Shown: positions 19,257 through 46,368 of the stretch, piece by piece
Position numbering within the stretch: the first letter of the stretch is position 1
Layout of the letters: every line of letters starts with the position of its first letter
Source: a virus
Strand: one strand, 5' to 3'
IMG/VR virus record: IMGVR_UViG_3300042868_007173
Location: 1 to 56,512 of that record
DNA length: 56,512 nucleotides
Notes under the pieces: generated by a model
Databases searched by the model: none
What the model was told of the DNA's origin: nothing
The model's input: the letters and a program-made list of their open reading frames with translations, nothing else
Made by a program: the position numbers and the translations under genes

Positions 19257-22200
19257 TTATTGATCTTCTTCTAAACCTAATATATCTTCCCAAGCTAATT
19301 TCAAATCTTCTTGCAAATATTCTTCTGGTTCTGGCCTTTCCCCAAATAGGTCTTTTTTAACCTTTTTGGTTGCAAGTGTTTTTATTTTACTTATGGCTTT
19401 CATCAAGTCCTCTTTTGAAATGTCTTTAATTGGCTTCAAAATTGTATTTTCACCCTCTGTAACTGGCACACCTTTTTGATATATATCGGTAACATATTTG
19501 CCTATTAACTTATCTCTTTGCTTTATAAACTCGTTAAATTCATCTTTTGTTACAGGGTTGCCAATTGGATTTTGTTTATAATTAACCATAAGGTTCTTAT
19601 CCATTGCACTTGATGTTTGAGTGTCTTTTAAAAGTGATTCTAAGTCCCTTTTATCGTACATTTTTTCATTTACCACTTTAATACCCATAAAGGCTGGTAT
19701 TCCTCTAGTTAAAATAGCTTCTGTGCCATCTATCTTCATTTGCTCTCTTAATTCCTTGATAAATAACGGCTCAAACAAGTCACTAGCTATTTGTCCTTTG
19801 TCATCTAAATTATACTGTTTACCTTGAAAATTCTGCGAAAACATTAAGTCCGCTGCTACACCTGTAAAAGGAGCTGCTTTACCTCTTGCAAACTTATAAG
19901 TTTCTGCTTTAGCATCAAATTTAACAGGCTTGCCGTTTATTACCTTATCCCTTAAAGTCATCATTGTTAAATACCTTACATAAGGCGTAAATCTACCAAA
20001 TACGTTATATGCCCACCCGTTTACAGAATCTTTTACTTGGGCAAATGATACACTTGTTGGGTCTGAATCTACTTCTTTATCAGGATCTAACGCCATTGCA
20101 GCCATAACTAAAACGCCCATTGCTATCCCATATGACGTTTCTCTCGCTGCATATTTTGCTACATCTTTAGTCATAGCTCTATAATAACCCTTATCTTTAC
20201 CTAAATTAACAGCATCGCCAAGCCCCATTATATTTAAAGAAGATGACATAAGTCCGGGCGCCCATACTAATGCAGATATAAGTGGATCTGATGATTTTAA
20301 AAAATTATGTATTTTACCTCTACCAGTAATGTTATTTGCATAACTTGCCAAACTTTTAAAATCTTCAATATTATTATCTAAGGTTTTCCCTTTAGCCATT
20401 AATCTTTCTGCACCTCTGATAAATATTTGCAACCTAAATTCATTACTAAATGCAGCAAAAATTCTTTCAAATGGAGATATTAGGTCTGATGCTTTGTATG
20501 TTTTAGTTTTAATTTCACCTAATTCTGTTTTTTCAGTAATCTTAAACTTCAGTTTATCTAACCAGTTTTGGCCGCCAAATTGCTCATTTGCAATTGATTG
20601 CCTAAATCCTTTTGGATCAATTAAATCTAGTCCAGATCTAGTTACCATATCTATTAATGGCTTATTTTCATAAATTTCAACTAATCTTCTTCTAAAATTA
20701 TTTTCGCTACCAAAAACCTCTATTTGCGATTTTAATCCTTTTGCTGTAGCTTTGATATTCATTGGGTTTAAAACAGCAATACCATTTTGAATAAATACAA
20801 CGGAGTTATCTATTCCCGCCTTCAATGCCTTTACAGTATTAAATCCTTCTTGAGCAAACTTCCCAGCTACAGCTACCCCTTTTTCAAAACCTCTTTTTGA
20901 CTCCATTTCTTCTCTAGCCATTTTGTTGGCGTACTCAAATTTTAAATTATCTAACTTATCACTCGCATCTAATAGCTTATTAAATAATTCTGGATTTTTC
21001 TTTTTTAATTCAGTATCATCTAATATGTTTATACGTTTTGGTTTTTTTGAATAATCTCCTTCTTTAATTCTTCTTTCAAATTCAGCTATTTGTGCTTCAA
21101 CATTTTTAATAGAACTTTCTAATCTTGTTTGATCTTTATCTTTTTTTACTTTGCCCTCATTCTTTAATTCATTAAATTCATTCCTAAGTGCTTTTTGTTC
21201 TTCCCTTAATTCTTCTAATTTTGGGCTGCTTATTTTTTCAGCTTTTTCTACTTCAAAATCCTTTTCTTCTATCCTTCTTTTTAAATCTTCTATATTTTTA
21301 GATACAGTTTTTTCTGCCTGTTTAATTCTTACGTCATCATAATACCCAGCTTGTCTTTTAGCTTCAACTAATTGCTTATTTAAATTAGCAATTCTTTGAT
21401 TTTTTCGTATTTCTTCCTTTTCAGTCTTTGGCTTTCCAGCTTTTACCGCTTCAATTTCATTAAGCAACTTTGCTTCTTTTCTTAAACTTTCAACTTTGTA
21501 TTGTAGTTCTGATTTTGTTGGTCTTGGCTCATTGTATTTGCCAGCAATCATATCTTGCACATCTTGCTTTGTGAGTCCAGCTAATTCCGTTCTTAATACA
21601 TCATGTATTCTAGTAACTAAATCTCCAAGATTTTCTACTCCTTCTTGAACATACAATCTTGCTAATTTTGCTACATCTGGAGCAATTTCAATAAATTCTT
21701 TTACGCCCGGCAATGGGACAGCATTAACACCATCTCTTCCCTCTCTAATATTCTTCAATTTCTGCCTAATATCTCCAATTACCTTGCTTCTTTCTTTTGC
21801 ATAATCTATTTTTTTACCCGTTTTACCCGTTACAGATTTCTTGGTTTCGTTTATCTCTCTTTGAGTTAATTCTTTTGCAGCTGCATCATTTACTTGCTCC
21901 CTTAACTTTTCTACTTCTTTCTCAAGCTTTGATATTTTTTCAAAATCTGCTTTTGTTTCTTCTTTTTGAGCTTTAGTCAATACATCTACTCCATTTCTAT
22001 TCATTTTATCAATGTAGTAATCAGAAATAGTTGTCATTGGTGCTGGCATACCCTTTCTTGCTTGCAATACTCTAGCCGCATCAGTACCAATTATATCATT
22101 TATTATTGTTAATCTTCTTTGTTTAGCAAGTAGTTCGTCTGTTGGATTCTCTGCTATTTTAGCATCCAATTCCATATTTAAAATCTTAACTACTTCTTGC

Positions 22201-22499
22201 TCAAACAAACTAACGGGACCACCATTTTCTAACTTATCAAGCAATTCATTTACATCTCCACCTTCCTTTAGCCATTCTTCAGCTTCTTGATTTGCCTTAA
22301 AATTGGTTATTACATCTGGATCATAGCTTTCCATATTAAGATATTGCCTTCTCATTTCATTAGCGGCTTTATTAATACCTCTAACCTCAGACTCTTCCCC
22401 AGCCAATTCGCCAGAAAATGCTTCTAAATTATTGGCTAAATACTCTTTAAGCTGTGCTTCGTTGTACTCAACTCCATCTATAACGTAAATGCAACCCAT
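19257..22499 (-). CDS. Large coiled-coil protein, probable ejection/internal virion protein
   Basis: A 1080-residue protein. Residues about 130-560 are highly charged with long coiled-coil stretches (KLEKEVEKLREQV, ELREEQKALRNEFNELKNEG). Residues about 560-850 look globular and partly membrane-active (GLMSSSLNIMGLGDAVN; hydrophobic IAMGVLVMAAMALDP). The rest is again charged. No family is recognised with certainty. Size, coiled coils and position beside a DdrB/ParB polyvalent protein and a gp14-like protein suggest it is packaged and injected with the genome. A transglycosylase or other enzymatic motif is not visible. Confidence 0.6.
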   Translation of the reverse strand: MGCIYVIDGVEYNEAQLKEYLANNLEAFSGELAGEESEVRGINKAANEMRRQYLNMESYDPDVITNFKANQEAEEWLKEGGDVNELLDKLENGGPVSLFEQEVVKILNMELDAKIAENPTDELLAKQRRLTIINDIIGTDAARVLQARKGMPAPMTTISDYYIDKMNRNGVDVLTKAQKEETKADFEKISKLEKEVEKLREQVNDAAAKELTQREINETKKSVTGKTGKKIDYAKERSKVIGDIRQKLKNIREGRDGVNAVPLPGVKEFIEIAPDVAKLARLYVQEGVENLGDLVTRIHDVLRTELAGLTKQDVQDMIAGKYNEPRPTKSELQYKVESLRKEAKLLNEIEAVKAGKPKTEKEEIRKNQRIANLNKQLVEAKRQAGYYDDVRIKQAEKTVSKNIEDLKRRIEEKDFEVEKAEKISSPKLEELREEQKALRNEFNELKNEGKVKKDKDQTRLESSIKNVEAQIAEFERRIKEGDYSKKPKRINILDDTELKKKNPELFNKLLDASDKLDNLKFEYANKMAREEMESKRGFEKGVAVAGKFAQEGFNTVKALKAGIDNSVVFIQNGIAVLNPMNIKATAKGLKSQIEVFGSENNFRRRLVEIYENKPLIDMVTRSGLDLIDPKGFRQSIANEQFGGQNWLDKLKFKITEKTELGEIKTKTYKASDLISPFERIFAAFSNEFRLQIFIRGAERLMAKGKTLDNNIEDFKSLASYANNITGRGKIHNFLKSSDPLISALVWAPGLMSSSLNIMGLGDAVNLGKDKGYYRAMTKDVAKYAARETSYGIAMGVLVMAAMALDPDKEVDSDPTSVSFAQVKDSVNGWAYNVFGRFTPYVRYLTMMTLRDKVINGKPVKFDAKAETYKFARGKAAPFTGVAADLMFSQNFQGKQYNLDDKGQIASDLFEPLFIKELREQMKIDGTEAILTRGIPAFMGIKVVNEKMYDKRDLESLLKDTQTSSAMDKNLMVNYKQNPIGNPVTKDEFNEFIKQRDKLIGKYVTDIYQKGVPVTEGENTILKPIKDISKEDLMKAISKIKTLATKKVKKDLFGERPEPEEYLQEDLKLAWEDILGLEEDQ

Positions 22500-22509: not shown

Positions 22510-23010
22510 TTATTGTTTTGACAAATATCTATCAAATTCTAAAATAGCTGCTTCATTTGTACCACATCTATTGTAACGACTAATCAAATCACCATAAGCT
22601 CCTACCGCTTTTAATTGGATAGTAACAAACTGCTGTAAGAATATACCTACTGCGCAATCTTCTTCTTCAGCTTCTTGGTAGAATTTTTTGTATTGGTTAT
22701 ATACATCTAATTCCATATCATAAGCTACCTGTAAAGCTGTTGCGATTGAGTCAATTTCATCTTCAATTGCATCTATTTTTGGCACATCTGCCACATCACC
22801 CATATCATTGATAAAATCAACAAATATTTGGTAATGGGTAAGTTCTTCTGCGCTTTCTGCTAGGAAGTACTTTTGACCTCCAAAAAAGCCTAATCTCTGT
22901 AATTGGTTAGCAATATGCTTCCAAAGGTTAGACTGGTACAATTCGGCATATATAGCCTTTTGCAAGCCCTTTTTCATACTAGGGCTTAATAAATTTTTTA
23001 CGTTGGGCAT
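22510..23010 (-). CDS. Ferritin homologue
   Basis: A 166-residue four-helix protein of ferritin length. AEELTHYQIFVDFINDMGDV (residues 54-73) aligns by memory with the E. coli FtnA segment containing Glu50 and His53. Candidate ferroxidase ligands are Glu23, Glu56, His59 and Glu100, and the QQF-VTIQ segment keeps the equivalent of Gln127. The acidic site-C residues of FtnA (Glu126, Glu129, Glu130) are replaced by Ile, Lys and Ala. It may therefore oxidise or bind iron, or be a structural shell derived from ferritin. The gene lies between two giant ejection-type genes: its start overlaps the upstream stop by 13 bases and it ends 10 bases before the next gene. Confidence 0.8.
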   Translation of the reverse strand: MPNVKNLLSPSMKKGLQKAIYAELYQSNLWKHIANQLQRLGFFGGQKYFLAESAEELTHYQIFVDFINDMGDVADVPKIDAIEDEIDSIATALQVAYDMELDVYNQYKKFYQEAEEEDCAVGIFLQQFVTIQLKAVGAYGDLISRYNRCGTNEAAILEFDRYLSKQ

Positions 23011-26000
23011 TTTATTTGAATTTTTAATTTTTCTATAATAAGGTCAAAGTTACGATCTACAAATTCTTTTTTAGCATTTTCCTTAGCTTTTTTACTAGCC
23101 TTAGTAACCGCCTCTTTATAATATTTTACTGCTTGGCTTTCGGTAGGCTTTGGCTTTGACTTTGGCTTTGGCTTTGTTTTTTCAATGGCTTCCTGCTTTC
23201 CAATAGCCTCTTTACCGCCTCTTGTACCAATTGCTTTTTGTTCTGCTGTTTCATTATATTCTGTTTTAAATATTTGTTGTATTGCTTCTTTTTTAGATAC
23301 GCCTTTTTGAGCTTCTTCAAACATAGTTGCAGGCTTATCTTTTACGGCATCTGCATATTTTGCAAATTCCGCAGCTATCTCTTTTTGACTTCCAATGTTC
23401 AATATTTTTGCTATTGCTATTGCCGTAGGTGAAAATGTGTCATTTGGGGTTTTGCCTTCATTAAACATATCTGTCTGACTAAGCCAATTATCAAAATTAC
23501 CTATACCGCTTTCATTAAAAGAATTAATAGCTATAATAGCTTCTTGAATTTGAGGTGTTATGCTTTTTTCTGAAGTTGTAGAAAAAATGCTTGGCAAAGA
23601 CTTTCTTAATCCTTCCTTTTGTGTGTAAGATAAACTTTCAAATAAATCTGGTAACGCTACATCTCCTCCGTCAAATAAAAAGTGCTGAACCACTGCTTCC
23701 AAATCCTTTGCACCAGCTTCTGTCAATGCCCCATCTTTAAATAATGTATTCCTCTGCGACTGATTCAAGTAAGGGCTTAGTAATTCTAATATTTTTTTGG
23801 AATTATCCCTAAGTGATTTATTAAGCGTATCATCCCCTTTAAATAAAACATCTGATATTCTACCCTTTAACTCAAAAGGCATTCTTCTTGTTATTGAAAC
23901 AGGATCTAATCTTCTTTTACCACCAGTTTCTAAATCCTTAACATCATAGTTACCTAATTCAATAGCCCCAACATCCGAAACAGCAATTTCTCTTACAAGT
24001 ACTGGATTACCCATGCTTTCAACTTGCTCTTTTGTAAATCCAAATTTTTCTGCATTATTTGCAAGATCATTTTTATATTGAGCATTACCTCTCTTATAGC
24101 CTTTTCTTAACCCGGCAGACCTGTTATTACCTTGTATTACCTCTCCTCTTTCATTGACCACAGGAGAACCACTGTAAGCATTTGTATTTTCTCCCAATTC
24201 TTCAAATCTTGGGTTGTTCGCGAAACTTTCTTCCGCTTGCAAACTACCTACATCATTTCTATTCTTAGGCTGCGCTTCTGGTATAAAATGCAAAGGGTTT
24301 CTAATTCCATTTTCATGGGAAGGCTGTATAGTTTCAGCTTCAACCAATTTATACTTAAAAGGTAGAGATACATCGTTAGTAAATCTAACTTCACCATTAT
24401 TACCTACTTCACCTTTTTGCTTTTCATTTCTATTATACTCAATACCATCTTTAGTGAATTTACCTTCTTTTCTTCTTTTTTCAGCTTCACCACTTAGTAA
24501 TAATTCTGTTTCAGCTAATTGTTTGTTAGTTTCTTCTTCTTTTGTTATTTCGGCTACTTCTGGTTCTTCTACTTCAACTTCTTCCTCTTCTTCAAATTCT
24601 TTAGCTTTCCCTTCTTTTTGTTCTTTCTTTGATAAGTCTTGTTCTCTTAATAAATTACCATTCTTATCTACTCTTATTAATTTAATGCTCGTCTTGTCTG
24701 GATTTTTTTTATTTTCAATAAATCCACCAACAACATAATCTTTTTTAAATATATTAATAACATCTCCAATTTTTGCATTTTCAAAACCATTGTTTTTCAA
24801 ACTAACCATATCAGTAAATAGCTTCACAAAACTTTTTGGATAAGTTAAACTATAATAATCTTTATCTTCTTCTAAAACTTTTGGGTTTGCTTTTAAATCT
24901 TTAGCATTATAAACTTTTACTTCTCCTTCCTTTGGTATTACTTCTGCTGCTTTTGTTTTTACTTCAGTTGGTTTAACTTCTTCAGTTACTTCAACTTCAG
25001 TAGGCTTAACTTCTTCTAACGCAGCTAATTCTGCATCATATTTAGCATTTATTTCCTTATTTTTAGATATTAATTTTTCATTTTCCTCTTTAGTCAAATT
25101 TAATGACAATGGAGGTTCCGCTGCTAATTCTTCTTTTCTTCTTTTTTCTATATCAGAAACTTCAGGCGCTGGCTTAATTTCTGCTTTAATAATTTCCTTT
25201 GTACCTACCGGCTTTCCTTGCAATGCTTCAAATTCAGCTTGAGTTACTTCTTCTCCATCTACTATATATTTTTTACCTCCAAATTCTTTTGATGGCTTCT
25301 TTGCAATGTTATATACTTCTGAATCTAATTTTTTAATTCTTTCTTCGTTGGCTTTTATTTCTTCATCTATACCTGCATGATAAGCTACGTCTGTATTTTG
25401 TTTTTGCTGAAGTAAATTTTGGTTAGCTTGGTTTATGTCGTTTCTCTCAACCAATAGCTCAATTGATTTCGCTCTACTTTCGCCCGTTACTGTTTCAGGT
25501 ATTTTATTTGCAACTTGTGCTGCCTTTTCTGCAAAAACAATACCTTCTTGGTACTGTTCAGGAGTAATAACATTATTAGCTAAATCTCTATCTAAATTTT
25601 TAACTGCTTTTTGAGTACCTATTTCAACTCCTTGTGTAACAATATCCTTAGCAGATACTTTATTACCAGAAGTTACTTTAGGGTTTTCTAAATTATCTTC
25701 GTATTGCTTAATCTGATTTTCTAAAACATCTGCTTCTTTTTGCTTGCCTTCCTTTCTTAAAATCTTAGCATTAGCACCCATAGCGTTAAGTAAAAAACCA
25801 ACGCCAAAACCAATTCCACCAGACGTACCTACGCCATCTAATATATCTTGGTTAATATTATATATATCTTTTGCTGTCTTATTAGAATAAATTTGCTGCA
25901 ATACCTCTGTTGTCATTTCCTCAATACCACCCGTAAGACCAGCAACACCTTTTGTTTTAATATAGTTAGCTACGCTTCCTCCTGTTGTATTATTAAATCT

Positions 26001-26819
26001 TTTGAAGAATTGCATTACTGGGATGGTTTCTAATACCGAACCAACTGCTGCGTTTTTGTAAAATGCCTCAAATGCTTGATCATCATTAGCGCCTTCTTGT
26101 TTTGCTCTATCAAATTCAGCTTGTCCCATAGAAAGACCTGCGCTTACTGCTGTAGGGGAAGCTAATTGTGATCCAAGTGTCTTAACTGCCGTTGCAGCTG
26201 CTGAAGCTTTAGGCGCTTGGCTAACTAATGCTGCACCTTTTCCTGCTGCTCCCGCAATACCCCCAGTAGCTATTAAAGACCCTACTTGTCCAAATGCTTG
26301 TGCAACTTGATCAGTAAGTGAGCCTTTAAATTCTTCATCTTGTGGAGTTAGTTCATCTATTGCGTTATTTAAATAATCGCCAAGTTTTATTAAGTTGTCA
26401 CTTATAATACCCTCTCCAGTTCCACCCAAAGCCTTTTTGGTTGCACCCTGAAGAACTGTACCTAATCCTTTAATCGGACTACTAATGAAATTTTTTGCGA
26501 AACCTTTGTCTAATGCAGACACTGTATTCAATAGCCATCCTTGTTTTTCTACAGGTTCAACTTTTACTTCTTTTGGAGATTTTGTACCCTCCGGCTGCAT
26601 TAAAAAACCCTTTTCAGCAAAAGCCTTACCTTTCTCAAAGTCTGGTAAAGCCAATTGTGATTTTGTAAGGGAAGATTCTTCGCCACCAACTTTTTTTTTT
26701 ACAACTTCTGTATCTAATGTAAACCCTTTAGGCAATTTCACATTAGGCGTTTCAATAGATTCGTCTAATTCGTCTAATTTAAACCCTTTAGGTAATTGTA
26801 TTTTATCGTTATCTGGCAT
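22998..26819 (-). CDS. Polyvalent protein with DdrB-like ParB domain, probable injected protein
   Basis: A 1273-residue protein. The N-terminus has repeated LPKGF-LD units (LPKGFKLDELD, LPKGFTLDTEV), a motif seen in phage polyvalent proteins. Residues about 120-350 contain Gly/Ala-rich hydrophobic stretches. A long charged Glu/Lys region follows. Residues about 830-960 carry the DdrB-type ParB-like core (NPRFEELGENTNAYSGSPVV, ERGEVIQGNNRSAGL, GNPVLVREIAVSD). Such proteins are thought to enter the cell with the DNA and counter restriction or process DNA. The tail is basic (KPKPKSKPKP). It abuts the ferritin and 445-residue genes with overlaps. Confidence 0.7.
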   Translation of the reverse strand: MPDNDKIQLPKGFKLDELDESIETPNVKLPKGFTLDTEVVKKKVGGEESSLTKSQLALPDFEKGKAFAEKGFLMQPEGTKSPKEVKVEPVEKQGWLLNTVSALDKGFAKNFISSPIKGLGTVLQGATKKALGGTGEGIISDNLIKLGDYLNNAIDELTPQDEEFKGSLTDQVAQAFGQVGSLIATGGIAGAAGKGAALVSQAPKASAAATAVKTLGSQLASPTAVSAGLSMGQAEFDRAKQEGANDDQAFEAFYKNAAVGSVLETIPVMQFFKRFNNTTGGSVANYIKTKGVAGLTGGIEEMTTEVLQQIYSNKTAKDIYNINQDILDGVGTSGGIGFGVGFLLNAMGANAKILRKEGKQKEADVLENQIKQYEDNLENPKVTSGNKVSAKDIVTQGVEIGTQKAVKNLDRDLANNVITPEQYQEGIVFAEKAAQVANKIPETVTGESRAKSIELLVERNDINQANQNLLQQKQNTDVAYHAGIDEEIKANEERIKKLDSEVYNIAKKPSKEFGGKKYIVDGEEVTQAEFEALQGKPVGTKEIIKAEIKPAPEVSDIEKRRKEELAAEPPLSLNLTKEENEKLISKNKEINAKYDAELAALEEVKPTEVEVTEEVKPTEVKTKAAEVIPKEGEVKVYNAKDLKANPKVLEEDKDYYSLTYPKSFVKLFTDMVSLKNNGFENAKIGDVINIFKKDYVVGGFIENKKNPDKTSIKLIRVDKNGNLLREQDLSKKEQKEGKAKEFEEEEEVEVEEPEVAEITKEEETNKQLAETELLLSGEAEKRRKEGKFTKDGIEYNRNEKQKGEVGNNGEVRFTNDVSLPFKYKLVEAETIQPSHENGIRNPLHFIPEAQPKNRNDVGSLQAEESFANNPRFEELGENTNAYSGSPVVNERGEVIQGNNRSAGLRKGYKRGNAQYKNDLANNAEKFGFTKEQVESMGNPVLVREIAVSDVGAIELGNYDVKDLETGGKRRLDPVSITRRMPFELKGRISDVLFKGDDTLNKSLRDNSKKILELLSPYLNQSQRNTLFKDGALTEAGAKDLEAVVQHFLFDGGDVALPDLFESLSYTQKEGLRKSLPSIFSTTSEKSITPQIQEAIIAINSFNESGIGNFDNWLSQTDMFNEGKTPNDTFSPTAIAIAKILNIGSQKEIAAEFAKYADAVKDKPATMFEEAQKGVSKKEAIQQIFKTEYNETAEQKAIGTRGGKEAIGKQEAIEKTKPKPKSKPKPTESQAVKYYKEAVTKASKKAKENAKKEFVDRNFDLIIEKLKIQIKCPT

Positions 26820-28156
26820 TATTGAATTTTTTTACCGGCTTTATCAAACCAATTTACACCATCTTTTGAATATATTTTAACTCCATTTGCTCCTGTTGCA
26901 GTGTACTTACTTTTGCTAAAATCTAATTGAGGTCCGCTTTTTGGCTCAGTATTGTATTTTCTTTGATAATTAAGCATAGACTGCCTATTTATATTACCAA
27001 CTCTCTTATTGCCTATTTTCTCTGGATTACCATCAACAAATGTTATATCAAACCCTGAAACACCTTTAGGATTGCCAATAACAGAAAACCATTCACTCGG
27101 TAAATCATCTTTCCCTAAATAAATTTTTCCATTTAATGGCGAACCACTTTTATCGTATGCCACTCCTTTTGATATTTTACCTCCAGAAGCTAAATTAATA
27201 TCTGGTATTTGATCTAATAAATTACCTTCCTCTACTACACTGACTACTTCATTTTTCTTTTGTCTAGCTAGAGCTAATCTTGTTTCTTCGGATTCTGTTA
27301 ATTTAGGAATACTTCTATCTTTAATAAGAGGTGCTTGAGATAAAACATTAGCATAAGATAATTCACCTAAATTATTAATATCTAATTTTTTTCCAGTATT
27401 GTCTTGATATACTTTAGCTAATGCTTGTGCAAAAACTGGATCTTTTTGAATATTTAACAAATAATCTTTATACCCGTCATCATTCAATTCACTATAAGCT
27501 AAAGATTTTGCTTCATCTTTATTAATTTCTTTAGGAGTTACCCATTGATATTCAATCTTTGAACCCGGTAAAAATTCTTTTGTTGCAACTCCCTCTGTTC
27601 TTTTAAGAAGTGTGTCTAATTTTTGACCAAATTTAACTGGATCAAATGAATCATATATTTTTATTTGATCTATAGCGGGAGCTACATAACCAGCACCATA
27701 AGGCTTCATTGCATTGCCCCATATATCTAAATAATTAGGAGATACATTCTTGCCTTCAGCTATTGCTTTATCATGAATAGTTTTAAAAGCTTTCCTTTCT
27801 CCTGCTGCTTGCTTTGCCCCACCAAGATAATTTGATAATTCTCTAAAACCAGCATCTACTGTAGCTTGCGTATCATAACCATATTTTGAAGGATTTGTAA
27901 GCTTTTCTTTATTTTTGATTGCAAATCCTTTTACTTCATTTAATTTATCAGTAAATATTTTTTGCTCTTCAGGTGTTAGTCCTGCTGAATTTAAAGATTT
28001 TTCATAATCTTTATAATATTTATCAATAGCTTCAGCCTTAGCTTGTTGCTTTTGCTGCATTTGCAAATATACTTGAAGTGGCTTAGATGTAAAATCTACT
28101 GCAACATTACCACCTCTATATGGGTTAACACCCGCTAATAATCCTGTAGATGCCAT
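26819..28156 (-). CDS. Probable internal virion / ejection protein
   Basis: A 445-residue protein. The N-terminus (GLLAGVNPYRGGNVAVDF) is followed by a long helical region rich in Gln/Lys (QVYLQMQQKQQAKAEAIDKY) and mixed domains ending in GVNWFDKAGKKIQ. I recognise no enzyme signature. It is flanked by the gp14-like protein gene and the DdrB/ParB gene, whose start shares one base with its stop, so it is part of the ejectosome block. A role in the ejected channel or as cargo is likely by context. Confidence 0.6.
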   Translation of the reverse strand: MASTGLLAGVNPYRGGNVAVDFTSKPLQVYLQMQQKQQAKAEAIDKYYKDYEKSLNSAGLTPEEQKIFTDKLNEVKGFAIKNKEKLTNPSKYGYDTQATVDAGFRELSNYLGGAKQAAGERKAFKTIHDKAIAEGKNVSPNYLDIWGNAMKPYGAGYVAPAIDQIKIYDSFDPVKFGQKLDTLLKRTEGVATKEFLPGSKIEYQWVTPKEINKDEAKSLAYSELNDDGYKDYLLNIQKDPVFAQALAKVYQDNTGKKLDINNLGELSYANVLSQAPLIKDRSIPKLTESEETRLALARQKKNEVVSVVEEGNLLDQIPDINLASGGKISKGVAYDKSGSPLNGKIYLGKDDLPSEWFSVIGNPKGVSGFDITFVDGNPEKIGNKRVGNINRQSMLNYQRKYNTEPKSGPQLDFSKSKYTATGANGVKIYSKDGVNWFDKAGKKIQ

Positions 28157-28162: not shown

Positions 28163-28882
28163 TTATTTTGATGGTTTCCAGTATTGACTATAATTAATTT
28201 TTGGACTATATGCCTTATCAAAATTACCATAAGGAGAACCAATAGTACGATCAAAAGACGCATTAGCCGATAGAGAGTCTGGACTATTTTTTACACCACC
28301 CCCATACCCAGAAGCTGCTATTGTTCCCGCTGCACTTAATCCCTGTCCTATCATTTGCATACCAGCATTAAATTGTTCACCTGCTGCTGCTCCTTTCATT
28401 TGCTCCAATTGTAATTTACGGTTGTACGGTGTAATTTGGTTAAAATCAAATTGTCTTTGATAATCAGCACTCTTCATTTGAGTAGCGTTACCAAATTGAT
28501 TAAATCTTTGATTTCTTTGAGCTTCAGCTTGAACGCCTAAATTTTGCATGGCATAATTTTGCCCCGCTTCTAATCTACTAATACCACCTATCGCTGATCT
28601 CCTGTCTTGCAATGCCCTTAGACCTTGAGCTGTTGCTCTTCTAGCATTCATAGCCCCCATTTGATATTGTTGAGATTGATATGGGTTTTCATTAAATCTA
28701 TTTAATGCTTGTTGATAATATTCATCAATAGATTTATCTGCTTTATATAATGGCGAATTTTTAGCAAGATCTTCAAGATTGCGTTGCGCTCTTTTTTGTT
28801 TTGTATCTGCTGATATTGCACTGTAAGCACCAAGCCCGGTTGAAATGACGGCTGATGTTATTCCAATTGCTGCAAAACTCAT
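28163..28882 (-). CDS. T7 gp14-like internal core protein
   Basis: A 239-residue protein. A hydrophobic N-terminal segment (AAIGITSAVISTGLGAYSAI, about residues 4-23) is followed by helical Ala/Gln/Arg-rich sequence (RRATAQGLRALQDRR, QNLGVQAEAQRNQRFNQFGN). A Gly-rich hydrophobic patch lies near 170-195. This layout matches podoviral internal virion proteins of the gp14 type, which insert in the outer membrane during ejection. It overlaps the upstream cupin-like gene by 4 bases and leads the ejection-protein cluster. Confidence 0.65.
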   Translation of the reverse strand: MSFAAIGITSAVISTGLGAYSAISADTKQKRAQRNLEDLAKNSPLYKADKSIDEYYQQALNRFNENPYQSQQYQMGAMNARRATAQGLRALQDRRSAIGGISRLEAGQNYAMQNLGVQAEAQRNQRFNQFGNATQMKSADYQRQFDFNQITPYNRKLQLEQMKGAAAGEQFNAGMQMIGQGLSAAGTIAASGYGGGVKNSPDSLSANASFDRTIGSPYGNFDKAYSPKINYSQYWKPSK

Positions 28883-29376
28883 AATTCTAATTTTTTATTA
28901 TTACACAATATTTTTTTATACTCTTGCCCAACATCTGAACCAGTAATCTGATTAATGTGTGGCTCTAATATTTTATCTTCTATCTCTTTTACTATTACCT
29001 CAATTTCTTGCTCACTTAAATCATTGTATTCAGATTTCATTCCTTCTATTCTGTGAAATGTAGTCCAAATACAATCTTCCAATATATATAAAACTCTTCT
29101 TGTTCCCGGCTTTGTTATACCAGTATAAGGAGCTGTTATTTCATACCATTCATCAGTATCAATAGATACAGCAACTTTTCCATAAGAAACAACATATGGA
29201 TGTTCTGTTTTATGTATCTTACTTGTCCATAAAGATCCAGCGGGCATAAAGATTTCTCTTATATACATTCCTTCAGTAAATTTATGAACTAAGGGACCTT
29301 CTATTAATTCATCAGGGAATTGCATTATTGCAGCTTCAATATTATCTACAATCTCATCATTTTCCCTAATAATCAT
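28879..29376 (-). CDS. Cupin-fold-like protein
   Basis: A 165-residue protein. The core (PAGSLWTSKIHKTEHPYVVS, SYGKVAVSI, GTRRVLYILEDCIWTTFHRI) has the strand pattern of a small cupin, with HKTEH and TTFH placed where metal-binding His residues lie. The C-terminus is an acidic helix. Similar small cupins occur in phage structural clusters, but their function is not known. It may be a virion protein or bind a sugar. It starts at the exact stop of the neighbouring tail gene. Confidence 0.6.
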   Translation of the reverse strand: MIIRENDEIVDNIEAAIMQFPDELIEGPLVHKFTEGMYIREIFMPAGSLWTSKIHKTEHPYVVSYGKVAVSIDTDEWYEITAPYTGITKPGTRRVLYILEDCIWTTFHRIEGMKSEYNDLSEQEIEVIVKEIEDKILEPHINQITGSDVGQEYKKILCNNKKLEL

Positions 29377-29930
29377 TATCTATTATTCAATGGTGAATTA
29401 ATATACTTAGTCGTTGCGCTGTTCAAATATACGAAAGAATTTGCACTTGTTTTCTCAAATTTTATAACTATGTAATTACCCTTTAGGCTATCCCCCTCTA
29501 TTAGCCCTCCCGGACTGTTAAAATCCCTTAAAAACGATGCTTGATACTCAGACTCCAAAGTTACAAAATCAGACTCTAAAAGCTGACTTACCTGCTTTAC
29601 AGCTTCATTTCCACCTGTCCCCATTTGGGTATATATAATTGGACAAGACCATGTAGTATTGCCTGTTTCCATTATTGAAACCCATGTCTTTTTATCCAAT
29701 GAATTTGAGTTAAATACGCTTGTTATTGATGCATTATATTGAACCCCATAGAAATTACAATATGTATTGTTTTTATGCATCCAAATTGCTCCATTTTTAA
29801 ACGTAAATAGTGTAATATTCAAACATCCCATCATTTCTGGATGATATGAGTAAAATGATTCAAAAGAGTTACCTACCTCATCAAATGAGATAGTATATGG
29901 ATCTTGATGATATAATAATGTATTTGCCAT
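29376..29930 (-). CDS. Tail-hub-associated structural protein
   Basis: A 184-residue protein starting MANTLLYHQDPYTISFDEVG. The segments NSFESFYSYHPEMMGCLNIT, TFKNGAIWMHKNNTYCNFYG and FVTLESEYQASFLRDFNSPGG resemble what I remember as the C-terminal part of large tail-hub proteins in crAss-like and related Bacteroidota phages. Here that part would be a separate gene. A TTTAATTAAA palindrome lies immediately before the ATG. Likely a tail-tube or nozzle component. Confidence 0.6.
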   Translation of the reverse strand: MANTLLYHQDPYTISFDEVGNSFESFYSYHPEMMGCLNITLFTFKNGAIWMHKNNTYCNFYGVQYNASITSVFNSNSLDKKTWVSIMETGNTTWSCPIIYTQMGTGGNEAVKQVSQLLESDFVTLESEYQASFLRDFNSPGGLIEGDSLKGNYIVIKFEKTSANSFVYLNSATTKYINSPLNNR

Positions 29931-30793: not shown

Positions 30794-33700
30794 TTAGCAT
30801 GAAGTATAATTACTTACTAAACCATTAGAATCAGTAATTACAGCGTATGTTGTAGATGTGGCTACAAAAACTAATGATTTCCATTGTCCTCCTGTATCTA
30901 AAGGTACTACTGTAGGTGATGTTGAATCATAAATATAAGTTACACCTGACTGCATAAAGTTTACATTACTTTGATAACTTCTACCACTATTATAACCTAA
31001 ACAAGCATTATTAGATGTGCTAAATAATCCTACAGGTCCCAACAATGTATAATATGTAGGAGCTGCTGTTGTTGTAGTAGTTGTAGATGTAGAGGTTGTT
31101 GTAGATGTAGTTGTAGTTGTAGAGGTAGTTGTAGTGGTCGGACAAGCTTGACAATTAGCTTGATATACTGCTATATTTGTACCATCCGGACCAAGACCCG
31201 CCCCAAATTGTCTACTAATTCCATTGCAAGTGCTTATCCAAACTTCGCCCGTTATACTTCCATCTAAAATTCCGGGACTTGTTAATACTTGTGCAGTGCA
31301 TAATGTATTAGCATAAGCTGGTTCTAAAATAGTAAATACCTCTAGCGGGTGTACCCCGTTACAATTATCACAAACAGTGTTAGCACTTACCATACTATAA
31401 GAAGCAATAAAAGTAGCATTAGCAATAGCTCTTGCAGTACCACCATTAAAAGTACAATCAGAATATCTATTGATTTCTTCCATTGCTATAATATACTTAT
31501 TTGTATAAGCATCAAAAACTCCATAAATACATGGATTACCAGTATAAATTGCCCCATCAGCTGCTGCTCCATTATTTAATGATTGTCTATAATCAGGCAA
31601 ATTTGCAGTAAAAAACGCATTTGTAAAATAAACTATACTAATAGGAGTTATTCCATCTTGACTTAATCTACATACTACACCTCTATAATTATCTACAAAA
31701 TAGTCTGCAAAGTTATTCCAAGCAAGACTTGTAGAAGCATCTCCAATACCATAATCACCTGCGAAATACTGTATCTTGTTAATTAATTTATCAGTATTTG
31801 CTTGTAGCGGGTTATCAGCACTATCTTTAATAATTTGTGTCAAAATAGGTACATTACCAACTTTAAATTTTTGATAAACTTTTAAATACCTATCCCTAAC
31901 ATGCAATCTCATAACATCACCAAAACTTCTATCGTATTCATCAAAATTTTCAAATAAAAAATTATTTGTTCCGTTTATATTTGTATTAATTTGATAAGCT
32001 TGGCTATATCTTATTAATGTAGGATAATACACTTGTCTAGCATTTTCATCAATAACAGAAGATCTGCCATTGCTATTCATTGTCAAGTAATATGCATCAT
32101 TAAAACTACTTTCAATAATTTCAATAGTTTTGCTTTGCAATACACTCATAGTCAAATCAAAAGATGCCACATAAGCATTATCCCCATATACGCCTATCCA
32201 CATTTTTGTATTAGCTGGGATAGTTACTTTTGTATCGCATGAGTATATATATCCAGTGCTATCTGTTACGCGACTTGTTTGAATATTTTGATATGTTTTT
32301 TCTGTTGCGCTTACTAAAAACATTTCAAATTGAGGCAATACATTAGTTGTAGATGTATTAACTGTTATTCTAACATCAAAAACTATATTTAATAAAATTA
32401 ATCCAGATGTTTTGTTATAAAAAACTCCATCATCTGTAAATTCTGGGTAAAAAGGAACAACTCCTCCTATTTTTAACTGAACGACAGTGGGCTGTATTGA
32501 AACTTGATAATCACTATTGGAAAAAGGCATTTGGCCATTTTGAATATTAAGGTTCATTATTAAGCTATCAATAATATACAATGTCGTACTTGGTATTAAA
32601 TCAATATCTTGATTGCCGCAATTATAAACCCATGTATTATTTAATATAATGCTTCTTTTTCTATAAAATAAATCACCATTTGTTCCACTAACAATTGCAG
32701 GAACTGTTGATGGACTTGTTGGAGATTGCGTTTGTTCAAGACCTATATGATAAGCATTAGCCGTACCATAATTACCTATGCCAAAACATTTACCAAATTC
32801 ATAAAAAAACTTTTGTGATTCATCGGAATTTGTGGAATAATTATACAAAAATATTTGATAATGCATAAAGTCCTTATCTCCATTAAAATTAAAATTATTT
32901 GGCTCTTCATCAACAGCAGCTTGTGGATATTTTATTTTTATAAAATTACCCACTCTTGTACCAACCGTTGTGTTAATAGATGCTTCAGTTCCTAATATTT
33001 CACAATCATATAAATTTATATTACTAATAGTGCCTGTTGAATCATATCTGCTTAAAAATGTAATTCTATCACCGGGTGTAAATGAATAAGAAACAACATT
33101 TACTGAAGAGCTGAATTGTTTATTATATTCAGAAATGTTAGAAATATCAACATAAGCATATGACTCTAAATCATAAACAGATGTTATTATATTTAATGAT
33201 AACGGGCTTCTATATGCACTATTACTTATCCAATACAATCTTTTATTATAAGTAGTATTGTTTGATCTTACTACTTGATAATATCTTGCCTCTAAAGGAG
33301 GTCTATTCTTAATCTCTAAATATGTTTGAGGGAATTGTGTACCATTATTTATATATGTAGTAAAAGTAGCTAACTTATTAGTTTGCGTACCTATTGTTCT
33401 TCCTTGCCCATCAAAATATTGTAACCCATACTGATACCCAGAATCCCATGAATTTGCAAATTGAGTATTATCTGGATTATTTGTACTAGAACTAATGTAT
33501 TTAACACCACTTGAATATAGGGTGAAATCATTTGTATTTGACATTATTAAAATATTGCCAACTAATGATACCTGTGTCCAATTATTGCCATTCGCAACCA
33601 ATCCTGCTGATATATCAGTAAGTATTGATGAAACAGTTTTAGGGGTAGTTAAATTTTGATAAGTATAACCTATATTTACATTATTAGAATTTACTACATT

Positions 33701-34936
33701 TATAACATATTGACCTACAGGATTATTTAATGTAGTTACTTGTCCATTTGTATTTGTACCTGTTCCATATAAATATATTTTCAATGTTCTACCAGTTGAT
33801 CCGCTATCTAAACCGTTACAAGTAGCAAAGAATAATAAACCACAATAATCCTTAAAGAAATATATTGGTACCGGAATATCTAAAGATGAATTAGGCGTAT
33901 AAGCTAACAATTCCATATTTGTTTTATTATACCCTTCTGTAATTCCGGCATATAATAAAGTATTACCATTTGCTAATTCTGCGGCATTTGCTTTTTGAGG
34001 AACATAATCTTGTAATTGACTAGATTCAATAACATCAATTTGAGAATAAATACTATCATTATAAAATTTATATGTAAATATGTCGTTATGAGGGATAGCA
34101 TTTTCTGCTTTGTCAAATTGACTAATTAAAAACCAATCAGAAATTACGCTATTGTTGTTTTCTCTAAAACTTAATTCAATGCCTTTTACATCTGTACCAC
34201 CACTTGAAACTGAAATAGAAATTCTAGCATTTAAACTTAAATCAGAATTTGTTAAAAATAAAGTAGGCTGCTGTGGAAGCGGAACTATACTTTTTGAACT
34301 CCATACAGATTTTTCATTATTATCATACACAAATCTGTAACAAAATTGATATAATGAATTTCTTAAATTATTTACAGTAACAATTGTATCATTTTCGTAA
34401 GTAACCTTTGGCGGCATTACTGGAGGAGCTTTAGCTATCAATAGATATTCTAATTTCCAAGATGTACCGTAATCCGCATCTATATTTATACTTTTAGGTG
34501 GGTTTAAGCCATCATTAAAATACAAAATATCTCCTTCATCATCTCTGTAAAATACATTAACCGATAAAACTTTATATGAAGGATCAAAATTTAGAATATC
34601 AATACCATCACTATCTGTTTTACTTACTAAAACTTTTACAATTATATCATTACTTAAATCATAATACAAAATACTATTAAACCCATTGCTATTCCACAAA
34701 AAATAATATGCTCTATTCCTTATTTTATCTGGGTAAAAACCAATAATTTTATTTGTGCCAGCTGGTAAAGTGTATGGCAATAAGCTATTCCCTAATATAT
34801 TAGATATAACCTTATCTTGACCAGTACCCTCTGCATCTTTTGTAACATTTAATGCATCAATGTAATCGCCATTAGATATTCTATATTGTGCAGTATCTAA
34901 ATTTAATTTACCATTAAAAGGGTTATTTATGATCAT
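30794..34936 (-). CDS. Large tail hub / stabilisation-like protein
   Basis: A 1380-residue beta-rich protein. Its opening (MIINNPFNGKLNLDTAQYRI, GDYIDALNVTKDAEGTGQDK) and the GDILYFNDGLNPPKSINID segment near 135-153 are typical of the large tail-hub (P22 gp10 / T7 gp12-like, beta-propeller) proteins of crAss-like and other podoviruses. The C-terminus differs: several Cys (VCDNCNGVHPLE, CQACPTTTT) lead to a 25-residue Thr/Ser tract and a final small domain. It sits 3 bases from the gp4/gp11-like adaptor gene, the usual order. Expected to form the tail nozzle. Confidence 0.75.
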   Translation of the reverse strand: MIINNPFNGKLNLDTAQYRISNGDYIDALNVTKDAEGTGQDKVISNILGNSLLPYTLPAGTNKIIGFYPDKIRNRAYYFLWNSNGFNSILYYDLSNDIIVKVLVSKTDSDGIDILNFDPSYKVLSVNVFYRDDEGDILYFNDGLNPPKSINIDADYGTSWKLEYLLIAKAPPVMPPKVTYENDTIVTVNNLRNSLYQFCYRFVYDNNEKSVWSSKSIVPLPQQPTLFLTNSDLSLNARISISVSSGGTDVKGIELSFRENNNSVISDWFLISQFDKAENAIPHNDIFTYKFYNDSIYSQIDVIESSQLQDYVPQKANAAELANGNTLLYAGITEGYNKTNMELLAYTPNSSLDIPVPIYFFKDYCGLLFFATCNGLDSGSTGRTLKIYLYGTGTNTNGQVTTLNNPVGQYVINVVNSNNVNIGYTYQNLTTPKTVSSILTDISAGLVANGNNWTQVSLVGNILIMSNTNDFTLYSSGVKYISSSTNNPDNTQFANSWDSGYQYGLQYFDGQGRTIGTQTNKLATFTTYINNGTQFPQTYLEIKNRPPLEARYYQVVRSNNTTYNKRLYWISNSAYRSPLSLNIITSVYDLESYAYVDISNISEYNKQFSSSVNVVSYSFTPGDRITFLSRYDSTGTISNINLYDCEILGTEASINTTVGTRVGNFIKIKYPQAAVDEEPNNFNFNGDKDFMHYQIFLYNYSTNSDESQKFFYEFGKCFGIGNYGTANAYHIGLEQTQSPTSPSTVPAIVSGTNGDLFYRKRSIILNNTWVYNCGNQDIDLIPSTTLYIIDSLIMNLNIQNGQMPFSNSDYQVSIQPTVVQLKIGGVVPFYPEFTDDGVFYNKTSGLILLNIVFDVRITVNTSTTNVLPQFEMFLVSATEKTYQNIQTSRVTDSTGYIYSCDTKVTIPANTKMWIGVYGDNAYVASFDLTMSVLQSKTIEIIESSFNDAYYLTMNSNGRSSVIDENARQVYYPTLIRYSQAYQINTNINGTNNFLFENFDEYDRSFGDVMRLHVRDRYLKVYQKFKVGNVPILTQIIKDSADNPLQANTDKLINKIQYFAGDYGIGDASTSLAWNNFADYFVDNYRGVVCRLSQDGITPISIVYFTNAFFTANLPDYRQSLNNGAAADGAIYTGNPCIYGVFDAYTNKYIIAMEEINRYSDCTFNGGTARAIANATFIASYSMVSANTVCDNCNGVHPLEVFTILEPAYANTLCTAQVLTSPGILDGSITGEVWISTCNGISRQFGAGLGPDGTNIAVYQANCQACPTTTTTSTTTTTSTTTSTSTTTTTTAAPTYYTLLGPVGLFSTSNNACLGYNSGRSYQSNVNFMQSGVTYIYDSTSPTVVPLDTGGQWKSLVFVATSTTYAVITDSNGLVSNYTSC

Positions 34937-34939
34937 CTA

Positions 34940-35710
34940 TTATGCTTTTACAGTCATTCTTTGAGTGTCTAAATTTTGTTCGTAAGCTTGCATTAAGTAC
35001 AATGGCTTAAATTGAGCATTAGCAATTCTTCTTTGGTTATAAAATTCTTGCTTTCTATCTCTTTTATCACCTAAATTACCTTTTCTTGTACTTGGCATAC
35101 TTGCTATATCTCTCCAAGCTAACCATGAAAGCAATGCCTCCCTAAATTGAATAGGTATAGAAAAAGTTTCTTCCGGATTACCACTAGATAAATATTCTAT
35201 CATCAAATAAGAATAATAAAAATATTGATTTAAAAGAACCACACCATTTGAATCATCAATATTAAATTGACCTACAAATGGAGAGCCACTTGGTAATCCA
35301 TAAATATTTTGGAAACCATATCCATCCCAATAATTAAACCACAATGGCAAATCTGATTGATACCATGTAGCCAAAGTATTATCTTGAGTCAATGCCAATC
35401 TATCTGGCTGTTGATCTGCATAATATGTCATTTTGTTATTAAACTTCAATGGGATAATTTCTCCTACTGAATTTAATACACCTATCTTAGTATAACTAAT
35501 ATAATCATTAGGCAACTGAGCCGTATAATTTGTTGTATCAATAGCAACTTTAACTGTTCTTATTTTGTAAAAAAAGTCAAGCCCTAATTTCTCCATACCT
35601 CTTACAGCTATATTGTATAATTTAGCGTATTTATGTACGGATTGTTCACTTTCATCAATATAATCATTGATTACAGAATCTAGTGTTATATAATTTCTAA
35701 CTTGTGACAT
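34940..35710 (-). CDS. Tail tubular / head-tail adaptor protein (gp11-like)
   Basis: A 256-residue protein starting MSQVRNYITLDSVINDYIDE. An N-terminal helical bundle precedes beta segments (VAIDTTNYTAQLPNDYISYT, KIGVLNSVGEIIPLKFN) and a C-terminal helical part (IQFREALLSWLAWRDIASMP). This is the arrangement of T7 gp11 / P22 gp4-type adaptors and of their crAss-like equivalents. It lies between the tail hub and the GroES-like gene, at the centre of the connector cluster. Confidence 0.65.
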   Translation of the reverse strand: MSQVRNYITLDSVINDYIDESEQSVHKYAKLYNIAVRGMEKLGLDFFYKIRTVKVAIDTTNYTAQLPNDYISYTKIGVLNSVGEIIPLKFNNKMTYYADQQPDRLALTQDNTLATWYQSDLPLWFNYWDGYGFQNIYGLPSGSPFVGQFNIDDSNGVVLLNQYFYYSYLMIEYLSSGNPEETFSIPIQFREALLSWLAWRDIASMPSTRKGNLGDKRDRKQEFYNQRRIANAQFKPLYLMQAYEQNLDTQRMTVKA

Positions 35711-35712
35711 AT

Positions 35713-35985
35713 TTAATTATTTGATGCGTAAGCTAATATATCGTTTTGACGAATTAAGAAAACAAGTTCATTATCTAATATAATTGGTTCTCCTGCTCCT
35801 TTTACATGGAAAACAATATCATCCTTTTTAGCCTCCATTTTAACTTTAGCCGTTCCGTTACCTACAGAAATTACCTTTGCCTTACAATTTCTTTCTCTAT
35901 ACCCTTCTGGCAATAATAGTCCGCCTTCGGTAACTTCTTCTGGTGCAAATGGTTTTACTAAAACAAAATCTCTAATTGGTTTCAT
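35713..35985 (-). CDS. GroES (Cpn10) co-chaperonin homologue
   Basis: A 90-residue protein, close to the usual 95-97 of bacterial GroES. The N-terminal strand MKPIRDFVLVKPFAPE corresponds to the RPLHDRVIVKR region. EVTEGGLLLPEG is a mobile loop with a hydrophobic LLL tripeptide, the part that docks onto GroEL. Then come AKVISVGNGTAKVKM, KKDDIVFH and LDNELVFLIRQNDILAYA, which track the GroES core and end. It is expected to cap host GroEL and adapt it to a phage protein such as the capsid, as T4 gp31 does. Its position among the connector genes implies late expression. Confidence 0.9.
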   Translation of the reverse strand: MKPIRDFVLVKPFAPEEVTEGGLLLPEGYRERNCKAKVISVGNGTAKVKMEAKKDDIVFHVKGAGEPIILDNELVFLIRQNDILAYASNN

Positions 35986-35992
35986 ATATTAT

Positions 35993-36625
35993 TTAGTTGT
36001 TGTTATCTACTCCGTCATTACTTGTGTCTATTGGTCTTGATCTTTCAAAAGCTAATTGCCCCTTAATATATTCTACTATCAAAGGAATATAATCATCAGG
36101 TATATTTAATGTTGAATTCAAGTCTGTTGAAATTCCACCACTAACCATTCTTATCGTAGCCTTATACGATGTTAATTGTATTGCACTTTTAATATAAACA
36201 TTTTTACCTTCAATCCAATAAAGTATTTTATTTTGTATTGGTCTTAATTGCTCTTGATAAGCAACTTGATTCATGCTTAATGGTATTGCGGTCTGAGATG
36301 TTTTTTTATCACCAACAAATTGCAACATAGCAATACCTTCATCCTTTCCTAAAGCTACTGGTATTTGAGGTAAATCTACACTGTAAGTAACAGTATCAAC
36401 TGGCTCAGCTGCAATATCTAAATTTGTAAATGTGGTATAAAAAGAATTGTTTACATAAGCAATTCCATCCATTTGAATACCATCAGTATAATTTCTTTTA
36501 GCCGCTAATCCAATAGCATCATTAAGCCATTGATTAACTAGATTATAAGTAATGCTGCTATCATCAGATGGTTGCCCATTATAAATCTGTCTTAATATTC
36601 TTTCTATAAATGCGTTTCTAGTCAT
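35993..36625 (-). CDS. Connector-region structural protein
   Basis: A 210-residue protein. The helical N-terminus (NAFIERILRQIYNGQPSDDS, LVNQWLNDAIGLAAKRNY) resembles small head-tail connector proteins. A beta-rich middle (VDTVTYSVDLPQIPVALGKD) follows, then IPDDYIPLIVEYIKGQLAFER near the end, a motif common in these adaptor proteins. It shares one base with the upstream gene. Probably a head-tail joining ring. Confidence 0.6.
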   Translation of the reverse strand: MTRNAFIERILRQIYNGQPSDDSSITYNLVNQWLNDAIGLAAKRNYTDGIQMDGIAYVNNSFYTTFTNLDIAAEPVDTVTYSVDLPQIPVALGKDEGIAMLQFVGDKKTSQTAIPLSMNQVAYQEQLRPIQNKILYWIEGKNVYIKSAIQLTSYKATIRMVSGGISTDLNSTLNIPDDYIPLIVEYIKGQLAFERSRPIDTSNDGVDNNN

Positions 36626-37320
36626 TATTGCCCAATTTGTGTTACTTGATTAGCATATTGTTGCACTTGTCCGTCTTGTAAATTTAAGCCAATTAATTTT
36701 AATGCCCTAGATATTATTTCTAATAAATCTACGTCATCCCATACTGGCTGTACTGTCCCTGTTGTCGGAGTAACTCCTGACCCCGTTTGAGTAGGAGCAT
36801 AAAAAGGCCTACCGCTTACAGTTGTATAAGCCCAAACTATTTCAGGTGCGTTTTTTACATAAGTTAAAATGGCACTCCCAAGTGTTACAGGATAAAACTG
36901 AAATCCAGCAGGCTCTAATAAATAAATAGGATTAGTTGCAATTGGATCAATTTCGCTATTGTAATAAGAATACAAAGTATCTTGTTGAGAATATCTAACT
37001 CTCTTAAAAGCTGGTGTTATAATTGCATCTGTTTGCAAATAATCAACTGGATAAGGTGATTGACCGGTTGTGCTATTTATTGTTAATGTAGCCTCTGCAA
37101 TCAATGGGGTTAACCTTTGTCTAATATTTTGATTTTGGCTATAACTAACCCTAGCTTGAGGTCTGCCATATTGATATTGCTGAAACTCGCCCAACAAGTA
37201 GTCTTGATATGAAACTTGTGCTTGATTTATAACAAGATTAAATTCAGATGGAGTCAAATAGCCATTTTGCGCTTTATTAACTGCAAACTGACAAATACGA
37301 TACATATCATTAACATTCAT
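36625..37320 (-). CDS. Connector-region structural protein
   Basis: A 231-residue protein. The N-terminal helices (MYRICQFAVNKAQNGYLTPS, FNLVINQAQVSYQDYLLGEF) look like an adaptor bundle. The middle is beta-rich and the end is helical (DVDLLEIISRALKLIGLNLQ). This pattern is typical of one of the connector proteins between portal/capsid and tail in crAss-like genomes. It is the first gene of a unit that starts just after a terminator, with its own TATATTTG element. Confidence 0.6.
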   Translation of the reverse strand: MNVNDMYRICQFAVNKAQNGYLTPSEFNLVINQAQVSYQDYLLGEFQQYQYGRPQARVSYSQNQNIRQRLTPLIAEATLTINSTTGQSPYPVDYLQTDAIITPAFKRVRYSQQDTLYSYYNSEIDPIATNPIYLLEPAGFQFYPVTLGSAILTYVKNAPEIVWAYTTVSGRPFYAPTQTGSGVTPTTGTVQPVWDDVDLLEIISRALKLIGLNLQDGQVQQYANQVTQIGQ

Positions 37321-37337
37321 TGGAATAAGTTATACAA

Positions 37338-37345
37338 CAAATATA
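37338..37345 (-). promoter_or_regulatory. Promoter -7 element for the connector/tail unit
   Basis: The minus strand TATATTTG matches TAnnTTTG and lies 17 bases before the ATG at 37320, directly after the terminator of the preceding gene. The -33 region overlaps that terminator hairpin and lacks TTTG. Confidence 0.5.
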
Positions 37346-37347
37346 CG

Positions 37348-37379
37348 AAAAAAGCCCCGTAATTTTTAGGCTACAGGGC
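37348..37379 (-). terminator. Rho-independent terminator
   Basis: On the minus strand GCCCTGTA (37372-37379) pairs with TACGGGGC (37354-37361), with one G-T pair and a 10-base loop, followed by TTTTTT (37348-37353). It ends the transcript of the 299-residue protein gene. Confidence 0.8.
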
Positions 37380-37403
37380 TTATTTTATTTAGAGGGGAAA
37401 GAA

Positions 37404-46366: not shown

Positions 46367-46368
46367 AA

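Follow-up and report, generated by a model that had tools for sequence, protein, structure and literature searches.

A Phage-Specific Ferritin Encoded among Predicted Virion Cargo and Head Genes of Tailed Phages

The Ferritin Gene and Its Neighborhood

We analyzed a stretch of viral DNA of 56,512 nt (hereafter the window), which carries on its minus strand an intact open reading frame (ORF) of 166 aa with an ATG start at 22510..23010. This gene, designated FER, was identified as a ferritin gene from the ORF list, Pfam, a PDB sequence search, AlphaFold, Foldseek, and the invariance of its metal ligands. Its start overlaps by 13 nt (22998..23010, minus strand) the 3' end of the gene for a giant protein of 1273 aa (22998..26819, minus strand) with a DdrB-like ParB domain at residues 816-944 (PF18763, E = 3e-25), and it ends 10 nt before the gene for a second giant of 1080 aa (19257..22499, minus strand), in agreement with the arrangement given in the original prediction. 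Overlaps of 1-16 nt between FER and its neighbor recur in most relatives with such a cargo block. The 1273-aa giant also matched phrog_5143 and phrog_2206 (E = 7e-6), and one of its stretches matches part of the PHROG of the N4 virion RNA polymerase. The 1080-aa giant, taken from the ORF list, was mostly helical in a low-confidence model (pLDDT 53.6), and because this model was too poor for a fold search, the ejection role proposed for the protein rests on its position.

Beyond the 1273-aa giant, on the same strand, lie the genes for a 445-aa cargo-block protein (26819..28156; ORF and synteny) and a 239-aa cargo-block protein with a hydrophobic N-terminus (28163..28882; ORF, hydropathy, and synteny), the latter possibly an ejection or channel protein. 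The following gene (29376..29930, minus strand) showed a weak match to the C-terminal domain of the crassvirus muzzle protein (PF25729, E = 2.6e-4, 21.8 bits, below the cut-off of 27) and forms the end of the tail module, adjoining the cargo block. Thus, the order is muzzle-like, 239 aa, 445 aa, 1273-aa DdrB-ParB, FER, and 1080 aa. The virion structural and packaging module, recognized from PHROG matches and TerL relatives, extends over 30794..47423 on the strand of FER and contains a large tail protein, ring proteins, a putative major capsid protein (MCP) and scaffold, both assigned by position against an annotated elemovirus, the portal (41855-44260), and TerL (44318-46366).

The genes that come after the muzzle gene in crassviruses code for virion cargo that has been detected by mass spectrometry (PMC10172136). 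DdrB-ParB domains are found in late phage genes, the DdrB and DarB proteins of P1 are head proteins, and packaging and injection are established or predicted for polyvalent phage proteins (PMC5512222). The 1273-aa DdrB-ParB giant is likewise predicted to be a packaged or ejected polyvalent protein, and the expectation that FER lies among ejection-type proteins was supported, as the surrounding block contains giants of the phage-cargo kind.

FER Is a Non-Heme Maxi-Ferritin

FER matched the Pfam ferritin family (PF00210) with 54.2 bits against a curated cut-off of 24.5 (E = 1.9e-14), with rubrerythrin as a weaker second match at 28 bits. In PHROGs, FER and all 43 relatives tested fell into phrog_16594, a family of unknown function. 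In a phmmer search of PDB sequences, residues 8-164 were matched to the ferritin of Archaeoglobus fulgidus (E = 2.7e-12), and a profile of the phage family reached 2.4e-17 against the same sequences. A monomer model built by AlphaFold with 43 phage sequences (pLDDT 95.7) comprised five helices (residues 10-40, 43-69, 89-117, 119-147, and 153-165), the last of which is the C-terminal helix E. All of the best 50 Foldseek matches of this model in the PDB were ferritins (query-length TM 0.87-0.94, rmsd 1.1-1.7 Å), with no non-ferritin helical bundle among them, and comparison with bacterial and archaeal maxi-ferritins gave TM values of 0.92-0.95. FER thus shows the features of a maxi-ferritin, i.e., a Pfam score above the cut-off, a four-helix bundle with helix E, and the ferroxidase ligand set. 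These results confirmed the ferritin-like frame predicted at this locus by ORF, Pfam, phmmer, and Foldseek evidence, and the profile searches proposed along with it separated FER, as a PF00210 ferritin, from the Dps and rubrerythrin families. We concluded that FER is well supported as a true ferritin of the non-heme maxi type.

Several related assignments were considered and rejected. FER is not an FtnA-type equivalog, as the NCBIfam non-heme ferritin equivalog model gave only 33 bits against a cut-off of 178 and site C is incomplete. Dps was ruled out by helix E, the intra-subunit ligand set, and the lack of a BC-loop helix in the model, and only ferritins occurred among the best 50 Foldseek matches. 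For rubrerythrin there was the 28-bit Pfam match only, and the second, rubredoxin-like domain is absent from the 166 aa. FER is also distinct from encapsulated ferritin-like proteins, being a five-helix subunit rather than the short two-helix type; a by-eye check revealed no known encapsulin loading peptide, and no capsid-targeting signal was identified in FER.

The Ferroxidase Ligands Are Invariant among Phage Sequences

We compared the active site in an alignment of 56 distinct phage sequences with a reference sequence of Escherichia coli FtnA that is consistent with the PDB matches. Glu23, Glu56, His59, Glu100, and Gln132 of FER correspond to E17, E50, H53, E94, and Q127 of FtnA; the four ligands and the conserved Gln that had been proposed from the window sequence therefore all align with FtnA, the Gln being Gln132. 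These five ferroxidase ligands were unchanged in 56/56 phage sequences, at identities down to about 40%. The claim that the acidic residues of site C are replaced held for two of the three positions: FtnA E126 and E129 are replaced by Ile131 and Lys134 (Ile in 54/56 and Lys in 45/56 phage sequences, respectively), but the equivalent of E49 is retained as Glu55 and is Glu in 48/56. The position of the site-B residue E130 is occupied by Ala135 in FER and by Ala or Ser across the phage sequences. Site C is likewise missing from eukaryotic H-chain ferritins, which have Ala in place of E130 and yet are active; the ferroxidase center of FER is therefore expected to be intact and catalytically competent, with metal ligands that, judging from the alignment and the fold, would converge.

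Other residues are characteristic of the phage sequences. The position of FtnA Tyr24 is Trp in 45/56 and Tyr in 11/56, and it is directly followed by Lys in all 56. The phage proteins have an N-terminal extension of 5-6 residues with invariant Lys5 and Leu7, and further invariant residues outside the ligand set are Lys31, Gln38, and Tyr139-Gly140-Asp141.

Distribution of and Selection on the Phage FER Clade

Scans of IMG/VR revealed 74 FER loci, whose identities ranged between 98% and 41%. A conserved-peptide scan of 84,980 prokaryote genomes, which required exact peptide patterns such that more distant cellular relatives could escape, yielded one FER relative, and this was located on a phage-like 6.3-kb contig of a Burkholderiales metagenome-assembled genome with the same giant-FER-giant layout. 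The phage FERs formed one clade apart from the sampled cellular ferritins, a small set in which the ferritins of Bacteroidota were not widely represented. A search of the GenBank phage collection with the window FER gave no credible phage match. Its only match, MT838721, is labeled "Bacteriophage sp." but is actually a bacterial contig, with two ferritin-like genes and genes for aldolase, phosphoglycerate mutase, Hsp20, and a sigma factor. Of two distant FERs compared with GenBank phages, one (locus L108) gave only a weak partial match to two Staphylococcus phage records and the other (L122) gave no match. No isolate or proteome with a FER gene was found.

The pN/pS values, calculated from NG86 counts for the window and its closest relatives, were 0.03-0.11 for FER, whereas those of three neighboring genes in the same genomes were 0.17-0.36. 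Purifying selection is thus stronger on FER than on the neighboring genes, and the constraint at the protein level is unusually strong.

FER Occurs in Different Contexts of the Structural Module

FER was located between two giants in the window and in loci L001-L007, L010-L012, L062, L065, L066, L122, and L123, and after one fused giant in L025, L040, and L041. The giants flanking FER in L066 contain ART-PolyVal, InPase, LPD39, and DarB-like stretches, and those in L122 contain a helicase/methyltransferase region. In a second group of podophages (about 40 loci), FER lies between the portal and the scaffold-MCP genes; in L108 it lies between the p129 gene and TerL, and in L119-L121 it precedes ring-protein genes. 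In a myophage with a tail sheath (L116 and L117), unrelated to the window, FER directly follows, with a 14-nt overlap, a gene matching "minor head protein and DNA pilot", and is itself followed by a neck protein gene. In all 75 of 75 FER loci, a neighbor of 150 aa or more lay on the same strand no further than 60 nt away, FER mostly overlapped or abutted its neighbors, and every readable context was one of head, cargo, or packaging genes. Because the structural module makes up more than half of such genomes, each placement taken alone counts for little; the agreement among the contexts is suggestive but no proof. In the FER tree, the portal context appeared in several separate branches amid cargo contexts, and thus genes or alleles have passed from one phage lineage to another within the structural module; instead of relocating, FER could have kept its positions while only alleles were exchanged.

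FER is an optional gene. With the neighboring 172-aa protein as an anchor, FER was present in 30 of 43 readable contigs and absent from 13, and a search throughout these 13 records, several of which are 60-70 kb, gave no FER match elsewhere. At the place of FER, the FER-negative relatives resembling the window mostly have a single giant ORF (about 1900-3300 aa); in L079, L084, L088, L089, L093, L094, and L099, a single giant of about 1900-2700 aa takes the place of two giants and FER. The 1080-aa protein of the window matched, with weak E-values, the C-terminal part of the FER-negative giants, and in two cases the ParB protein matched upstream in the same giant ORF, which indicated that FER sits at a split of a giant cargo protein. 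In the FER-negative L088, a 265-aa ORF that by eye resembles a GIY-YIG homing endonuclease was observed at the place that FER occupies in L040.

L040 itself is nearly identical to the window except for window positions 19246-27247 (L040 3324-10489), with flanks of 96-98% identity. Within this block, the giant genes and FER were swapped together as one clean cassette, although this co-exchange alone does not demonstrate an interaction between FER and the giants.

The giant directly after FER opens with the motif C-x-Y-x-I..G..YTE.ELK.YL in the window (19257-22499) and in L010, L062, L065, L066, L122, and L123. This N-terminal motif was observed only in FER-bearing loci, which belong to very diverged phages, and in none of the FER-negative loci; when it was searched against GenBank phages, all matches were insignificant. 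The motif might serve in packaging or in the docking of FER, and it is inseparable from the split-giant layout.

Comparison with Known Ferritins and Packaged Phage Proteins

The ferritins of E. coli (FtnA), A. fulgidus, and Thermotoga maritima share with FER the fold, helix E, the five ligands, and an acidic charge. FER differs from bacterial and archaeal ferritins in sequence (21-26% identity), in its N-terminal extension, and in being encoded by phages in a structural module. The closest precedents in phages are the Dps and Mn-catalase proteins reported in gut Bacteroidetes phages (Gratiaviridae and Flandersviridae) and Lactobacillus phages, which are likewise enzymes of the ferritin superfamily (PMC8008677, PMC6669764). 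These proteins belong to other families, however, and no link to packaged cargo has been described for them; the Dps gene of Lactobacillus phages, unlike FER, lies near DNA metabolism genes. Among predicted viral structures, the nearest to FER was a putative non-heme ferritin of an uncultured marine phage (BFVD A0A8D9C9X5; TM 0.90, 22% identity); this protein and A0A8S5Q7U4 of Siphoviridae sp. ctrzs15 share the ferritin fold with FER (TM 0.83-0.90) at identities of only 19-22%. Two further BFVD entries from uncultured Caudovirales, A0A6J7WIS1 and A0A6J7WPK9, are named prohead protease and match the ferritin-like fold (query TM 0.64-0.67, high rmsd). In them, a Dps-like domain is possibly fused to a head protease, which would be another link to the head.

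The setting of FER resembles those of P1 DarB/DdrB, the N4 virion RNA polymerase, and crassvirus gp45-gp50 in neighborhood, neighboring domains, and late virion genes, but FER differs from the polyvalent cargo proteins in being a small single-domain enzyme. Neither the paper on polyvalent proteins (PMC5512222) nor the crassvirus atlas (PMC10172136) mentions ferritin, and no description of a ferritin in a phage cargo or head module was found in the open-access literature searched. If FER is packaged, encapsulins with encapsulated ferritin-like proteins would offer a parallel, with a ferritin-type cargo in an HK97-type shell. Encapsulated ferritins are described as decamers recognized via loading sequences, whereas FER is a full five-helix ferritin of a DNA-packaging phage. 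We also considered gp217 of the Vi01-like Salmonella phage Sajous1, published as a ferritin by Phyre2 from a virion preparation (PMC10892097), as a precedent for a virion ferritin. This candidate (L155, 4448-4801) was rejected: Pfam assigned it to DUF5856 (100 bits) rather than PF00210, with no ferritin match, which places it outside the FER family.

A Proposed Role of FER in the Phage Particle

The fold, the ligand set, the purifying selection, the phage-specific clade, and the structural-module placement of FER are well supported by the computations. We proposed, at a probability of about 0.45, that FER is a competent ferritin of a phage-specific clade that is produced late, packaged with the giants, and oxidizes Fe(II). 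Judging from its position, FER would be expressed late, from a co-directional block with the head and cargo genes. It would assemble into a cage of 24 subunits and enter the virion, where its probable place is inside the head, alongside or close to the giant cargo proteins. In the particle and in the dying host, FER could bind Fe(II) at its ferroxidase center and oxidize it with O2 or H2O2; iron held in the ferric state would then cause less Fenton damage, sparing the packaged genome and the proteins of the virion. Alternatively, FER might act as a small iron-handling enzyme that is carried into the next cell. A 12-nm cage is too large for the tail when folded; delivery would therefore require subunits or unfolded protein, or else the cage stays in the head. 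Such handling of iron would presumably benefit the phage. Slightly more tentatively, active FER may be a packaged virion protein loaded into the head of tailed phages together with polyvalent ejection proteins. If so, the particle would carry iron or an iron-oxidizing enzyme, as a guard of the genome or for delivery to the next host cell, and the portal/scaffold and myophage minor-head positions would represent more placements of one virion part.

A serious competitor, to which we would still give less than an even chance, is that FER is a soluble late auxiliary protein that acts in the infected cell only and is never packaged; while that cell is failing, FER would sequester Fe(II) and use up oxidants, and its location in the structural module would serve only late, high expression. 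The complete ferroxidase site and ferritin fold would suit this function, the phage Dps and Mn-catalase proteins provide a precedent connected with oxidative-stress tolerance in infection (PMC8008677, PMC6669764), and FER is optional, with no targeting signal seen. A general stress protein, however, has no need of such a neighborhood, and in differing lineages FER is repeatedly found next to packaged proteins (giants, portal, and minor head protein), the gene starts overlapping or abutting.

The location within an assembly module is also what would be expected if FER had been exapted as a scaffold, plug, or spacer in the head, neck, or cargo and iron chemistry played no part. That two glutamates of site C and the counterpart of E130 have been lost is consistent with such a change, and the invariant Lys5, Lys31, Gln38, and Tyr139-Gly140-Asp141 might form a docking surface. 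Pure structure, though, does not need five ligands that stay invariant down to about 40% identity, and site C is missing from active eukaryotic H-chains as well. Because the ligands were invariant in 56 phage sequences and dN/dS was very low, the suggestion that a ferritin cage became a structural component is disfavored, and we regard it as improbable. An iron role in the phage tail, which had also been raised, fared no better. In this published "Ferrojan" hypothesis (as cited in PMC10892097), iron-loaded FER on the tail or fibers would aid adsorption to iron-uptake receptors; a ferritin is able to hold iron, but FER adjoins cargo, portal, scaffold, terminase, minor-head, and ring/neck genes (the last in L119-L121) and no fiber genes, and Vi01-like phages do not depend on TonB or FeoB (PMC10892097). 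Since the neighbors are not fiber genes, this tail role is unsupported, and we consider it highly improbable. Finally, ferritins are widespread in bacteria, and FER might be a recently captured host gene or an assembly artifact with no role in the phage. Its presence in dozens of independent viral contigs as a distinct clade, with a conserved position and very low dN/dS, and the giant-FER-giant layout of the only relative in the genome collection, a 6.3-kb contig, make this scarcely credible.

That phage particles carry iron, inside or on their surface, is a long-standing conjecture with little direct evidence. What is new here is the association of FER with packaged phage proteins, and FER itself is a new member of the ferritin family. 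FER defines a ferritin family that is specific to phages, retains an intact active site, and is present in at least two phage types, and it leads to a sharp prediction, namely that ferritin peptides and iron occur in purified virions. The FER-negative sister phages, with one giant in place of two giants and FER, offer a natural comparison. FER would possibly add an iron or redox function to the proteins co-packaged with DNA, which have hitherto been mainly associated with anti-restriction, transcription, and cell entry.

Host and Other Features of the Window

The TerL of the window resembles those of Flavobacterium, Cellulophaga, Tenacibaculum, and Maribacter phages, and the host is therefore probably a flavobacterium. 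Beside the tail module, a glycan-related island (1421-8317) encodes a 1156-aa protein in which an FkbM methyltransferase is fused to GT1 and GT9 glycosyltransferases, a GT2-like protein, and a DUF6165 protein; a comparable island appears to lie between TerL and the portal in the phages with the portal context. Two proteins with collagen-like GTSGTSG repeats (10920-12758 and 13717-18060; the Pfam Collagen model was run on the first only) are probably fibers.
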